From the NCBI GenBank assembly GCA_009923495.1, contig RFTJ01000001.1, forward strand, positions 76,879 to 140,878: 64,000 bases of DNA, written 5' to 3'. The notes beneath the pieces are model-generated. The model saw only the letters and a program-made list of their open reading frames with translations. It had not been told where the DNA came from and did not search any database. Source of the DNA: Actinomycetota bacterium (lineage in GTDB: Bacteria; Actinomycetota; Actinomycetes; S36-B12; UBA5976). Of this stretch, positions 15,361-46,685 are shown in pieces; position 1 is the first letter of the stretch, and every line of letters begins with the position of its first letter. Made by a program: the position numbers and the translations under genes.

Positions 15361-15458
15361 AATACCTAAAGAAGTCTAATGCAAAAAATACGATAGGCTA
15401 AACCGCGGTCAGAAATTAGAATAAGTAGTCCAATGGATAACTGTTAATTCTGACTCCC

Positions 15459-15564
15459 GCGGGTGTAGCTCAATGGTAGAGCCCCAGCCTTCCAAGCTGG
15501 CCATGCCGGTTCGACTGTATCTATTTCTTTGCTCACTACTTCGCAAAGATGGTCACCCGCTCCA
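15459..15564 (+). tRNA. tRNA-Gly (anticodon TCC) interrupted at the T loop
   Basis: Positions 15459-15516 give a normal tRNA-Gly from the acceptor strand GCGGGTG through D arm, anticodon arm (CCAGC-CTTCCAA-GCTGG), variable loop, T stem GCCGG and T loop TTCGACT. The 3' end, GGT-CACCCGC-T-CCA, follows only at 15551-15564 and pairs with the acceptor. Between them lie 34 extra bases (15517-15550) that form their own 7-bp hairpin (TCTTTGC with GCAAAGA, 10-nt loop). Removing them leaves 69 bases before CCA, two short of a standard tRNA-Gly, because two T-stem bases are missing. It is either a decaying gene, a gene needing unusual processing, or an assembly fault. The CCA end is encoded. Confidence 0.75.
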
Positions 15565-15680
15565 GTAACTACCGCTGCCGGGATCGAACCAAAGGTTCGA
15601 CTGTATCTATTTCTTTGCTCACTACTTCGCAAAGATGGTCACCCGCTCCAGTAACTACCGCTGCCCGGGATCGAACCAAA
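15508..15680 (+). repeat. Two tandem 86/87-bp repeats overlapping the end of tRNA-Gly
   Basis: Copy 1 spans 15508-15593 and copy 2 spans 15594-15680; they are identical except for one extra C in copy 2 (run of CCC against CC). Each copy begins with GGTTCGACT of the tRNA T loop, contains the 34-nt hairpin insert and the tRNA 3' end with CCA, and ends with GGGATCGAACCAAA. Thus each unit is bounded by inverted GGTTCGA and TCGAACC, and the far end reads like a T arm on the other strand. The repeats fill most of the 335-base gap between tRNA-Pro and the next gene. Confidence 0.9.
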
Positions 15681-15695
15681 GGTTAAATTTTATAT

Positions 15696-28128: not shown

Positions 28129-28512
28129 CTAAGCAGCATCAGCAATTTCAACCCGCCGAGTTCGTTCAAAGGTAGCTGTTCCCCGAGTTAGGTCATGGCC
28201 AATTACATCTGCGGTGAGATCCAGGGTTGATCCAGTTCGTCCATCTTGTTCCCATTCACGAAGGGCCAAGCGCCCCACTATTACAACGGGATCGCCCTTG
28301 TTTAATGAAACAGCGCAATTCTCCGCCACATGCCGCCAACAAACCACCGAGTACCAAGTGACATCACCATCGGTCCATCGATTGGACTCACGATCAAACT
28401 TTCGCTCACTGGCCGCTAACCGAAAGCTAGCAACAGGCACTCCTTCACTGGTGTTGGTGAATTTCACATCTGTGGCAACATTGCCAGTAACTATGGATGT
28501 TGATGCGTACAT
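28129..28512 (-). CDS. ssb: Single-stranded DNA-binding protein (short form)
   Basis: A 127-residue OB-fold protein. SIVTGNVATDVKF, VASFRLAASERKF and YSVVCWRHVAENCAVSLNKGDPVVIVGRL (in parts) are the SSB family blocks. It lacks the long glycine-rich linker and the acidic DDDIPF-type tail of housekeeping SSB, ending VEIADAA. It may therefore be a second, SsbB-like protein for competence or chromosome segregation, with another SSB elsewhere (usually by rpsF/rpsR). Good upstream GGAGG (just before the ATG at 28512). Confidence 0.9.
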   Translation of the reverse strand: MYASTSIVTGNVATDVKFTNTSEGVPVASFRLAASERKFDRESNRWTDGDVTWYSVVCWRHVAENCAVSLNKGDPVVIVGRLALREWEQDGRTGSTLDLTADVIGHDLTRGTATFERTRRVEIADAA

Positions 28513-28653
28513 GTTTCCTCCTAAGTGGACTCAACTAATGATGTGCACATCGAATAAGTGTCAGCCACGCACTGTGAAAATTGGGGATAACCCAAGCCTC
28601 TGGATTGCCTTTTAAGCAGGGACACCAACTCGGTACACTTGAGTTAATACCAA

Positions 28654-28704
28654 GCGCCCGTAGCTCAATGGATAGAGCAACAGGTTTCTACCCTGTCGGT
28701 TGGG
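28654..28704 (+). tRNA. tRNA-Arg (anticodon TCT), 5' part of a split gene
   Basis: The acceptor strand GCGCCCG, D arm GCTC-AATGGATA-GAGC, and anticodon arm ACAGG-TTTCTAC-CCTGT are intact, with TCT as anticodon. After the variable loop and three T-stem bases the sequence leaves the tRNA. The missing T arm and acceptor 3' strand occur 1.15 kb downstream (29859-29880). Joined at the shared 15-bp repeat they give exactly 73 bases with a regular T stem GGGGG/CCCTC. The local gene cannot give a functional tRNA without excision of the intervening DNA or RNA. Confidence 0.8.
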
Positions 28705-29858
28705 ACCTATCAACAGCTACATCAATGTGGATGCAGCGCCGTTCTACCTCGCATAGGCGACCAATGCATTGCCTGCTTTGAAACGGTCATAGAGAAGAAC
28801 TCTTCCTTGTTTCTGCACATCTTAAATTACTCTATGTGAGTAGTACCTGAGTGTTCTAAATCACTATCATTCGTTGCGCCAGCGGACATTGATCGGCGCC
28901 GCATTATTGCAATGGCAACCATCAGAAACAAGATCAATCCAGCAGCAATCGCGCCTATCATTGTTGCATTCGCCGAGCCAAACAATGGACGCTTCAGTGG
29001 GGCCACAGCAATCGCATTAATCTCATTCTTACTTGAAATATCGAGTTTCCAAGTCACCGTCTTCTTATCGTCACTGAGATCACCATTAGTCGATGTGACC
29101 TCCCCAGGAAAAGTAATCTTCACATGCATGTCAGCAGTAGCCATCATAGAGTCCATAATGCCTTGTGAGAATTCATCCATTGGTTCGTCTCCAGATGCAG
29201 TACCTGATCCTGACTGCATATCAAAATTCCCTGAAACTACTATCGTGTCGCCAACGCGACTGAAGGCGAATTCTCCTTCTTTATTACCAGTGTTGAGAGC
29301 CGACAGTGGAGTGCCTGAAAATACAAACTTCGTACCGGTGAAGCCCCCTTCCTTGTATTCAGATTGCTTCATATTTGGGGTATTAGATGAAAAGAGATCT
29401 GTGGATTCTGGGGCGCTGGAATTTGGCTCTGGGGATTCAGTCGCCATTTCGGCAAGTGCGTCTGACATTGCAAAAATTACTTCGCCACTTACCCTGTCGT
29501 TTTGATCAATGGTGAAATCCATGGTCAGTTTCATGCAGCCACTTAATGAGAAGACAAGAACCGAAACGACTAACAATCTTGCGACACGCAAAATTGCTGA
29601 TTTGTTCCTACTTTTCAATTGCATCTCTCTCCATACTTTGCATCTGAACTTAAGGGGCTTTACTTGGATTATTTTTGGTGTCGCTGATGACCCTAGCAGT
29701 TTAGCTAAAATTCGTCGTGAATGTGCAGGATCAACACGCAGTCTTGCCTTGATTCAACAGCCCCCGGTAACCTTCACCAAAGTCACAAGATGAATTTGGT
29801 AAAAGATAAGTTTTGGAGCTCCCTTTTTTCGAAAGCCCTGCCAACCCTGTTGGTTGGG
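28690..29858 (+). mobile_element. Candidate 1.15-kb integrated element splitting tRNA-Arg
   Basis: A 15-bp direct repeat, ACCCTGTCGGTTGGG at 28690-28704 and ACCCTGTTGGTTGGG at 29844-29858 (14 of 15 identical), bounds the segment. This is the layout of attL and attR after site-specific insertion into a tRNA gene. The reconstructed circle junction has inverted CTGTTG and CAACAG arms around the core. No integrase is inside; the only gene is an LppM-like lipoprotein. The regions 28705-28826 and 29625-29843 hold no further recognisable gene. It could be a non-autonomous element, a remnant, or an assembly join. Confidence 0.45.
28827..29624 (-). CDS. LppM-like lipoprotein
   Basis: A 265-residue lipoprotein. 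The signal peptide ends in the lipobox LSGC (lipidated C30), followed by MKLTMDFTIDQNDRVSG, the pattern of LppM-family (formerly DUF3153) proteins of Mycobacterium and other Actinobacteria. A serine/proline-rich linker, an extracytoplasmic beta domain ending near residue 215, then a single membrane helix (about 225-245) and an arginine-rich cytoplasmic stub (RRRS) follow. It has no same-strand neighbour and lies within the segment that splits tRNA-Arg. In mycobacteria LppM influences surface lipoglycans; its role here is not known. Confidence 0.8.
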   Translation of the reverse strand: MQLKSRNKSAILRVARLLVVSVLVFSLSGCMKLTMDFTIDQNDRVSGEVIFAMSDALAEMATESPEPNSSAPESTDLFSSNTPNMKQSEYKEGGFTGTKFVFSGTPLSALNTGNKEGEFAFSRVGDTIVVSGNFDMQSGSGTASGDEPMDEFSQGIMDSMMATADMHVKITFPGEVTSTNGDLSDDKKTVTWKLDISSKNEINAIAVAPLKRPLFGSANATMIGAIAAGLILFLMVAIAIMRRRSMSAGATNDSDLEHSGTTHIE

Positions 29859-29880
29859 GGTTCGACTCCCTCCGGGCGTG
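29859..29880 (+). tRNA. tRNA-Arg (TCT), 3' part of the split gene
   Basis: The sequence GGTTCGACTCCC with CTCCGGGCGTG supplies the T loop, T-stem 3' strand (CCCTC) and acceptor 3' strand CGGGCGT, which pairs with GCGCCCG at 28654-28660 with one terminal G-T wobble, then discriminator G. The upstream 29844-29858 repeats the end of the 5' half. No tRNA 5' half directly precedes it. CCA is not encoded (CAA follows). The remaining bases to 30020 show nothing but a likely promoter region. Confidence 0.75.
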
Positions 29881-30020
29881 CAAAACCTTGAAGTCTCCAC
29901 ATGCTTCGACCAGCTGGCAGATACTTTTAAAGATAAATCAACTATTGTGCTAATGTTCCACAGAGTAATCAACTTCCTCATCAATACACCAGAAAAAGTA
30001 AAAGGACTAAGGCCGACCTA

Positions 30021-34080: not shown

Positions 34081-34653
34081 CTAAGGTAAGCCGTGCAGAG
34101 TGACTTCGGTCAAATCCAGGCGGGTTCTTGGCGCGAGTTCTCGCTCCTGGGCAGAGCCTTCTAACTTGCCTGGCTCATCTTTTCGACCAATCGCAATGGC
34201 AACTGCCACTTCTAAATCTGCCGGAGTGGCTAGTACCATTTCCATTTTTTCAAAATCGATACCACTCATCTGGTGGCTATGAAGACCTAGCGCCTGAGCC
34301 TGAATGGTCATCAGAGATACGCTCAACCCAGCATCATAAAAATTACGCTTACTCGAATTGCCATCTTCATCTTTCTTAACTGAAACTACAATTAGGGCTG
34401 AAGCAGTCGGTGCCCAATTTCTGTTAAATCCACTCAGTGCCATTGACATCTCTTTGTGTAAGTCTGTACCACGTTTTGCTACTGAGAACCGCCATGGTTG
34501 AGCATTCATCGCAGATGGTGCCCACCTACCAGCCTCAAGTATGGCGAGTAACTCTTGGTCAGAAACTTCGTGTGATTCATCGAACGAGCGTGGACTCCAT
34601 CTGTCCCGAATCAACTCAGTTAGTGGTGCTGAGGTTTCTGGTACTTTAGACAC
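34081..34653 (-). CDS. Nitroreductase family protein
   Basis: A 190-residue FMN-dependent nitroreductase-fold protein. RDRWSPRSFDESHEVSD and AGRWAPSAMNAQPWRF are the family's FMN-binding N-terminal blocks, and AVAIAIGRKDEPGKL is the C-terminal one. It reduces nitro, quinone or flavin-like substrates; which is not clear. It lies 30 bases after the threonine aldolase gene on the same strand and may be the last gene of that operon. Confidence 0.9.
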   Translation of the reverse strand: MSKVPETSAPLTELIRDRWSPRSFDESHEVSDQELLAILEAGRWAPSAMNAQPWRFSVAKRGTDLHKEMSMALSGFNRNWAPTASALIVVSVKKDEDGNSSKRNFYDAGLSVSLMTIQAQALGLHSHQMSGIDFEKMEMVLATPADLEVAVAIAIGRKDEPGKLEGSAQERELAPRTRLDLTEVTLHGLP

Positions 34654-45207: not shown

Positions 45208-46685
45208 TAGCTTAATTCTTCGCTTGCATCGGACTCTGAATCAATTGCTTGTGCCGTCAGATCTACAGGGACGACATCTTTGTCTCCATAGCCGTAGCCA
45301 TAGCCGTAGCCGTAGCCGTAGCCGTAGCCGTAGCCGTAGCCGTAGCCGTAGCCATAGCCATAGCCGTAGCCGTAGCCGTAGCCGCCACCATCGAAAGGTA
45401 CGAAGTTCAAGATTGGGCCCAACAATCTAGCGCCGACATTTCTCATCATCTCTACGGCCAGGCTTAATTGTCCGTAGGTTGTCTGGCCAAACCTTGCCAT
45501 GAGCAAGGCACCGTCGGTCACACGAGCCACGACCGCGCCGTCGGCCACAAGTAATAGTGGGGTTCCGTCAATAAATACATAGTCGTATTCTTCTCGGAGC
45601 TGGGAAATTAAAGACTCCATTTGCGTGCTACCGAGTAACTCACTTGGGTTAGGTGGAATTGGACCCGACGGGAGCACGTCTAGCATGCCACGATTCCAAG
45701 AGATCAACGCATCGTGAAGGCTAATTTGATTCGCCAGAACGTTCGTGAGGCCGACGCCACCCTCAATACCGAGATAGTCGGCAACACGAGGTTTACGCAA
45801 GTCACCCTCGACCAAGGCAACCCTGTTTCCAGCTTGGGCAAAGGCGATAGCGACATTCAGTGTGGTGGTTGTCTTGCCTTCACCAGGAAGTGCGCTGACA
45901 ACAACAATTACACGTGGAGTGTTGTCTACATCCACGAACTGAAGGTTTGTTCTAATGGCTCGGTATGCTTCCGAGCGCACACTCCTAGTATTCAGTACCG
46001 AAAGTGGACTGGTAGCCGTCTCAGAATCGTAGCCAATTACGCCAATCGGGTTCATTCCGGTTAGTTCATTAACTTCTTTGAACGACTTAATCGTGTTATC
46101 GAGTGTGTCCAGAGTAAGCGCCAGAGCTACGCCGACCCCAAGACCCAAAAGTAGGCCAAGCACGATGTTCACTTTCGGCTTTGGTGAAGTTGGAGCAGTA
46201 GGCGGAATGGCTCGCTCGACCACTGTCGCTTTAATCGGAGCTACCGAGAACGCCCCTTCTGGAGTTTCTAAAGTTTGAATGGTCTGAGCTAGTTCAAACG
46301 AAACTGCGTTGGCTACATAGGCGGCGCGGGTCGGATCTGTGTCAGAAGCGGAAACATTTATGATGACCGAATTTTGCGGACTGCTAGCACTAATCGCATT
46401 TTTCTTGATCCGAAAATCGATTTTTTTGGAAGCCGCTTCTAAAAGTGGTCTAGTTTGGACCAACTGGACATAGGTAGCCATCCGTTGACTTGAAAATTGT
46501 GCATCGGAAAAAAGGCTTCCAGTTGCCCCTTGACTTGTCGTCGAGACAAAAAGCTTGGCTTGGGATTTGTAAACCTTGACTGCCGTTACGCTAAAAATTA
46601 CTGCAAAAATGGTTGATATGAGGACGGCGGAAATTACTATCCGCCAACGCTTGCGCAGGATTCCGATAGTTTGCTCTAAACCCAC
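45207..46685 (-). CDS. Wzz/BY-kinase: chain-length regulator with tyrosine autokinase and Tyr-Gly tail
   Basis: A 492-residue protein. Membrane helices at about 15-37 and 172-196 flank an extracytoplasmic Wzz domain. The cytoplasmic kinase has Walker A SALPGEGKTTTT (264-275), a Walker A' LVEGDLRKP (with Glu where Asp is usual) and Walker B YVFIDGTPLLL. The C terminus is remarkable: residues 436-467 are sixteen YG dipeptides in a row, in place of the usual small tyrosine cluster, then a 25-residue acidic end. These enzymes control polysaccharide length and export through autophosphorylation of the tail. It is followed by an acyltransferase with one-base overlap. Confidence 0.93.
   Translation of the reverse strand: MGLEQTIGILRKRWRIVISAVLISTIFAVIFSVTAVKVYKSQAKLFVSTTSQGATGSLFSDAQFSSQRMATYVQLVQTRPLLEAASKKIDFRIKKNAISASSPQNSVIINVSASDTDPTRAAYVANAVSFELAQTIQTLETPEGAFSVAPIKATVVERAIPPTAPTSPKPKVNIVLGLLLGLGVGVALALTLDTLDNTIKSFKEVNELTGMNPIGVIGYDSETATSPLSVLNTRSVRSEAYRAIRTNLQFVDVDNTPRVIVVVSALPGEGKTTTTLNVAIAFAQAGNRVALVEGDLRKPRVADYLGIEGGVGLTNVLANQISLHDALISWNRGMLDVLPSGPIPPNPSELLGSTQMESLISQLREEYDYVFIDGTPLLLVADGAVVARVTDGALLMARFGQTTYGQLSLAVEMMRNVGARLLGPILNFVPFDGGGYGYGYGYGYGYGYGYGYGYGYGYGYGYGYGYGDKDVVPVDLTAQAIDSESDASEELS
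45288..45383 (-). repeat. Sixteen hexanucleotide repeats coding for Tyr-Gly
   Basis: Sixteen 6-bp units (TAGCCG or TAGCCA on the plus strand) run in phase from 45288 to 45383. Four units carry TAT in place of TAC on the coding strand (at 45288, 45300, 45354 and 45360). Changes in copy number would add or remove YG pairs without shifting the frame. Confidence 0.97.

Follow-up and report, generated by a model that had tools for sequence, protein, structure and literature searches.

The window analysed here, a stretch of 64,000 nucleotides from contig RFTJ01000001.1 (positions 76,879 to 140,878) of the Actinomycetota assembly GCA_009923495.1, contains a tRNA-Arg(TCT) gene that is split by a 1.14-kb insert whose sole gene is lppM. 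In related genomes of the same genus, this tRNA gene is a hotspot for small gene cassettes. With a probability of roughly 0.6, we consider that tRNA-Arg(TCT) is the attachment site of these cassettes and that the lppM cassette of the window lost its near end, either by an assembly fault or by a recent deletion. The split state is probably not the working state of the tRNA.

The interrupted gene consists of the following parts; depending on how its end is defined, the 5' part starts at 28653 or 28654.

28653-28704, plus strand: 5' part of tRNA-Arg(TCT) with acceptor 5' strand, D arm, anticodon arm and variable loop; it ends with the 15 nt of the left repeat copy
28690-28704, plus strand: left copy of the 15-bp repeat, ACCCTGTCGGTTGGG, the near-end junction of the insert, with no tRNA 3' half after it
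29844-29858, plus strand: right copy of the 15-bp repeat, ACCCTGTTGGTTGGG, with the same boundary as the orphan 3' halves of relatives described below
29859-29881, plus strand: 3' part of tRNA-Arg(TCT) with T arm and acceptor 3' strand, attR-like

The two repeat copies are identical at 14 of 15 positions and spaced 1,154 bp apart. When the parts are joined at either copy, ARAGORN predicts a 74-nt tRNA-Arg(tct) whose stems are all paired, whereas it calls no tRNA at the unjoined locus. The 5' part alone reaches 31.6 bits with a forced 3' end (Rfam) and shows 100% identity over 50 nt with the intact tRNA of relatives. These results agree with a preliminary description of this DNA, which had reported two tRNA halves with a 15-bp direct repeat at the break, their joining into a fully paired molecule (there given as 73 nt) and a tRNA that, as assembled, is rebuilt at neither end. 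Since only 4 of 3,000 random 15-mers of the window had a direct repeat with at most one mismatch within 1.5 kb, and since the joined tRNA is perfect, a chance origin of the split is excluded. The junction between insert and tRNA reads GGTTGGG/ACCTATC and is free of ambiguous bases (N). Promoter and terminator scanning of the split locus gave no excess over chance.

One possible placement of the break is position 36/37 in the anticodon loop, the loop in which group I introns of tRNA-Arg lie, as would fit a group I intron that is spliced from the transcript. Such an insert would end in A, whereas group I introns typically end in G, and it carries an antisense lipoprotein gene. Given the wrong terminal base and no Rfam match at E <= 1, introns of group I and group II were rejected, and we regard a group I intron as hardly credible.

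A search of 22 genomes of the same genus found the gene intact in 19 and split in none. The assemblies of G003, G010 and G022 lack tRNA-Arg(TCT); that of G002 is interrupted at this gene, which lies at the ends of two contigs. Upstream of the gene, relatives carry ettA or ssb, while the genes downstream differ. Orphan tRNA 3' halves lie downstream of the tRNA in G012, G008, G009, G019 and G005 (two in the latter), and G003 has one on a contig without tRNA-Arg(TCT). Most of these halves have their left boundary around ACCCTGT, as in the window. The attL/attR-like layout from site-specific insertion, as proposed earlier for the window, is thus supported by a hotspot across the genus and by orphan halves with the same left boundary.

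One 2.2-kb cassette, encoding a PadR-type regulator as well as membrane and secreted proteins, occurs in two species with ~96% identity: in G009 it directly follows the tRNA, whereas in G005 it occupies the second array position (the order being inferred from two contigs). The left ends of several cassettes of relatives carry TTGACAGTTTATTTGACAGTTT, the right ends of those in G003, G005, G009 and G012 align over ~120 bp, and the tRNA is rebuilt in every relative where the near end of a cassette is visible. In G020, tRNA-Arg(TCT) is directly followed by the DCC1-type gene that comes after the array in G005 and G008; this genome therefore looks like the empty site.

None of the open reading frames (ORFs) in the examined cassettes of relatives encodes an integrase. 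The insert of the window holds none either, as had been noted before, and both PF00589 matches of its genome lie elsewhere. An integrase residing at the tRNA-Arg(TCT) site was considered for the whole genus and rejected: nearly all PF00589 matches resemble the two Xer recombinases, and additional ones are rare. A different arrangement was observed in G015, where two tRNA-Lys(CTT) genes on contig C45 (L137, 238-8509) are separated by 8.2 kb and the second is flanked by a tyrosine integrase gene; this locus looks like a classic autonomous tRNA island within the genus.

Based on these comparisons, we propose that the tRNA-Arg(TCT) gene serves as attachment site for small cassettes without an integrase of their own, and that a recombinase supplied from elsewhere would catalyse a crossover at ACCCTGT, on the 3' side of the anticodon stem. 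Each cassette would normally carry its own tRNA 3' half, which restores the tRNA at the near end, while the far end is marked by an orphan 3' half; repeated insertions would produce the arrays. The window would then represent one cassette with lppM as cargo and a normal far end; missing from its near end are the tRNA 3' half and the cassette's own outer end, and the tRNA is split as a result. This loss most likely arose either from a local fault in assembly or consensus, at a site that is hypervariable and bears repeats, or from a recent deletion, in which case the cell would have a working tRNA copy outside the assembly.

The insert itself is composed of three segments.

28705-28826, no strand: non-coding left end, ACCTATCAACAGC..., without the TGACAG arm motif of the relatives' cassettes
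28827-29624, minus strand: lppM-family lipoprotein gene, 265 aa, the only cargo (Pfam PF21946, E=4.9e-32)
29625-29843, no strand: non-coding right end

The preliminary description has to be corrected here, as the insert holds one complete ordinary gene (lppM, PF21946). No lppM was found in the 22 genomes of the genus, and its occurrence in the order is sporadic; in 13 other genomes of the order, the examined flanks of lppM homologues contained no tRNA. We conclude that lppM is a foreign gene in the split tRNA. A phage or prophage origin was rejected, as lppM remained unmatched in phage records, IMG/VR and PHROGs. The junction of the split locus likewise had no match in IMG/VR, and the single IMG/VR match to the attachment (att) core is an intact tRNA. 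An integron cassette was rejected as well, because inspection of the junctions revealed no GTTRRRY/RYYYAAC core.

The locus has an upstream neighbour and a downstream anchor, and a third feature of the window lies further away.

28129-28512, minus strand: ssb gene, also the upstream neighbour of the tRNA in G012, G008, G005 and G011
34081-34653, minus strand: nitroreductase-like gene (function by sequence inspection only), downstream anchor, which adjoins the orphan half in G012
45289-45384: TAGCCG tandem repeat (6 bp, 16 copies) where two long minus-strand ORFs meet

The assembly that contains the window comprises 1.45 Mb in 59 contigs, with an estimated completeness of 97%; gene content, GC and genome size suggest a streamlined actinobacterium. 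A tRNA covariance search found 37 full tRNAs and two weak ones, namely the split tRNA-Arg(TCT) and a match at window position 15459. Across the whole assembly there is neither a second tRNA with anticodon TCT nor a second matching 3' half, and the split gene is thus the sole assembled tRNA-Arg(TCT). AGA is read by tRNA-Arg(UCU) and GGA by tRNA-Gly(UCC). Long ORFs of the window use 7.0 AGA and 16.7 GGA per 1000 codons, and the cell must therefore possess working copies of both tRNAs. With the assembled gene set alone, it could not decode AGA and could not live.

A second break affects tRNA-Gly(TCC), of which the assembly likewise has a single copy. It lies at 15455-15684 of the window, 13 kb from the split tRNA on the same contig, and its break contains no cassette. 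In the copies from 21 relatives this tRNA runs GGTTCGATCCCGGTCACCCGC; in the window, ...GGTTCGA is followed by 36 nt in place of the T-arm TCCC. The replacement matches a tRNA-derived repeat that is also found just downstream, and it is followed by a tandem duplication of 86 bp that includes inverted pieces of the T arm (CGGGATCGAACC). We also observed that relatives have an intact tRNA-Gly(TCC) with similar tRNA-derived repeats downstream, and that many species of the genus carry short hairpin repeats, GGTTCG-X-GGTCACCCGCTCC, which are built from tRNA-Gly pieces and come after tRNA-Gly(TCC) (L144-L161).

Two broken sole-copy essential tRNAs, together with a locus that is often lost from the assemblies of relatives, favour an assembly fault or recent decay, with a working copy outside the assembly. 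Sister species keep tRNA-Arg(TCT) intact, so that the cut probably reflects such a fault or decay and not a new switch. The earlier suggestion of a non-autonomous element of a new type, by which the target tRNA would be inactivated or reversibly interrupted, is not supported: relatives rebuild the tRNA, this kind of cassette is already in the literature, tRNA-Gly(TCC) is broken as well, and the cell could not live in the assembled state. Judged from the sequence, the near end may result from mis-assembly, from a mixture of strains or from a true deletion. Two observations weigh against the loss of a near end from an ordinary cassette. The junction GGTTGGG/ACCTATC has no long repeat and no N, and a simple short-read mis-join is therefore not obvious. 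Furthermore, the window cassette shares no end motif with those of G003, G005, G009 and G012 and may for this reason be a different type of element.

A true deletion of the tRNA 3' half and the left end of the cassette, with a functional tRNA-Arg(UCU) elsewhere, outside the 59 contigs, overlaps with the second branch of our preferred explanation (deletion with an unassembled working copy). The missing arm motif at the left end is consistent with it, as are a completeness of 97% and not 100% and the count of 37 full tRNAs versus 38-44 in four relatives. However, a second full-length copy occurs in no relative of the genus, although one more distant genome (G028) has it, and tRNA-Gly would need a second copy too. 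We therefore view it as a possible but rather doubtful alternative.

The 15-bp repeat at the break and a far-end boundary that agrees with other cassettes would also fit an element with a short core that inserted without a tRNA 3' half, switching the tRNA off in its carriers within a population that mixes filled and empty sites. In G012, the closest relative, att-like cores of ~25 nt, ACCCTGTCGGTTGAAGGTTCGAATC(C), were observed without a tRNA 3' end on contigs C100 and C11 (L203, about 519-550; L204, about 407-433), at two places that have no tRNA; these isolated cores are possibly secondary sites or remnants. If they are real and usable recombination sites, a short-core insertion into a tRNA is mechanically possible, at low probability. 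Against this stand the lack of any assembled tRNA that reads AGA, the absence of a split tRNA from all relatives, and the tRNA-Gly(TCC) broken on the same contig without a cassette. A short-core insertion is therefore unlikely. Its specific form appears quite improbable: an element of one gene, without an integrase and with a core of 15 bp, would insert between anticodon arm and T arm of an essential single-copy tRNA-Arg(UCU) gene and persist there in part of the population, so that AGA decoding depends on excision by a recombinase acting in trans.

Taken together, this study documents, for a streamlined bacterial genus, a cassette hotspot at tRNA-Arg(TCT) that has recognisable recombination ends and lacks a resident integrase, which makes the hunt for a helper recombinase concrete. 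It also carries a warning: draft assemblies often miss or break the tRNA genes beside such arrays, and 'split' tRNAs at these places therefore need read-level proof. A literature search for bacterial tRNA genes that are interrupted in this way retrieved none.

Comparable cassettes have been described in other streamlined aquatic bacteria. In 'Candidatus (Ca.) Actinomarinales', gene cassettes are associated with direct repeats of tRNAs, and the consulted sections of that report point out that damage to single-copy tRNAs could be lethal (PMC7771536). The tRNAs named in the same sections are Asp, Ile, Phe and Glu (PMC7771536), whereas here the tRNA is Arg(TCT); the elements described here differ further in their recognisable end motifs and in the near end of the window, which fails to rebuild the tRNA. 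Additive flexible genomic islands of 'Ca. Methylopumilus' repeat the last 20 bp of tRNA-Lys(ctt) before variable insertions, which measure 330 bp to 42 kb and whose function is mostly unknown (PMC10872708); host group and tRNA are different, and the repeat in our genus comprises ~37-40 nt from the anticodon stem, compared to 20 bp. Tycheposons in Methylophilaceae span 4-200 kb and carry a tyrosine recombinase (PMC10872708). Like them, the cassettes of this genus carry cargo, have tRNA genes at their borders and occur in streamlined plankton; unlike them, they measure ~1.1-4.4 kb and have no tyrosine recombinase. Measured against the definition of a tycheposon (tyrosine recombinase, at least 4 kb), the insert of the window falls short, with 1.14 kb and lppM alone. 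It does have the traits of tRNA-repeat cassettes: the genes beside the tRNA are variable and differ in each relative, and the tRNA 3' part is directly repeated at the far end (29844-29881 of the window, and in six relatives). A rebuilt tRNA at the near end is present in relatives and absent from the window as assembled; such rebuilding is usual for insertions of this kind, yet it is no strict criterion in PMC10872708 or in the consulted sections of PMC7771536. The hotspot thus matches the 'additive' tRNA-repeat cassettes already known from streamlined aquatic bacteria.
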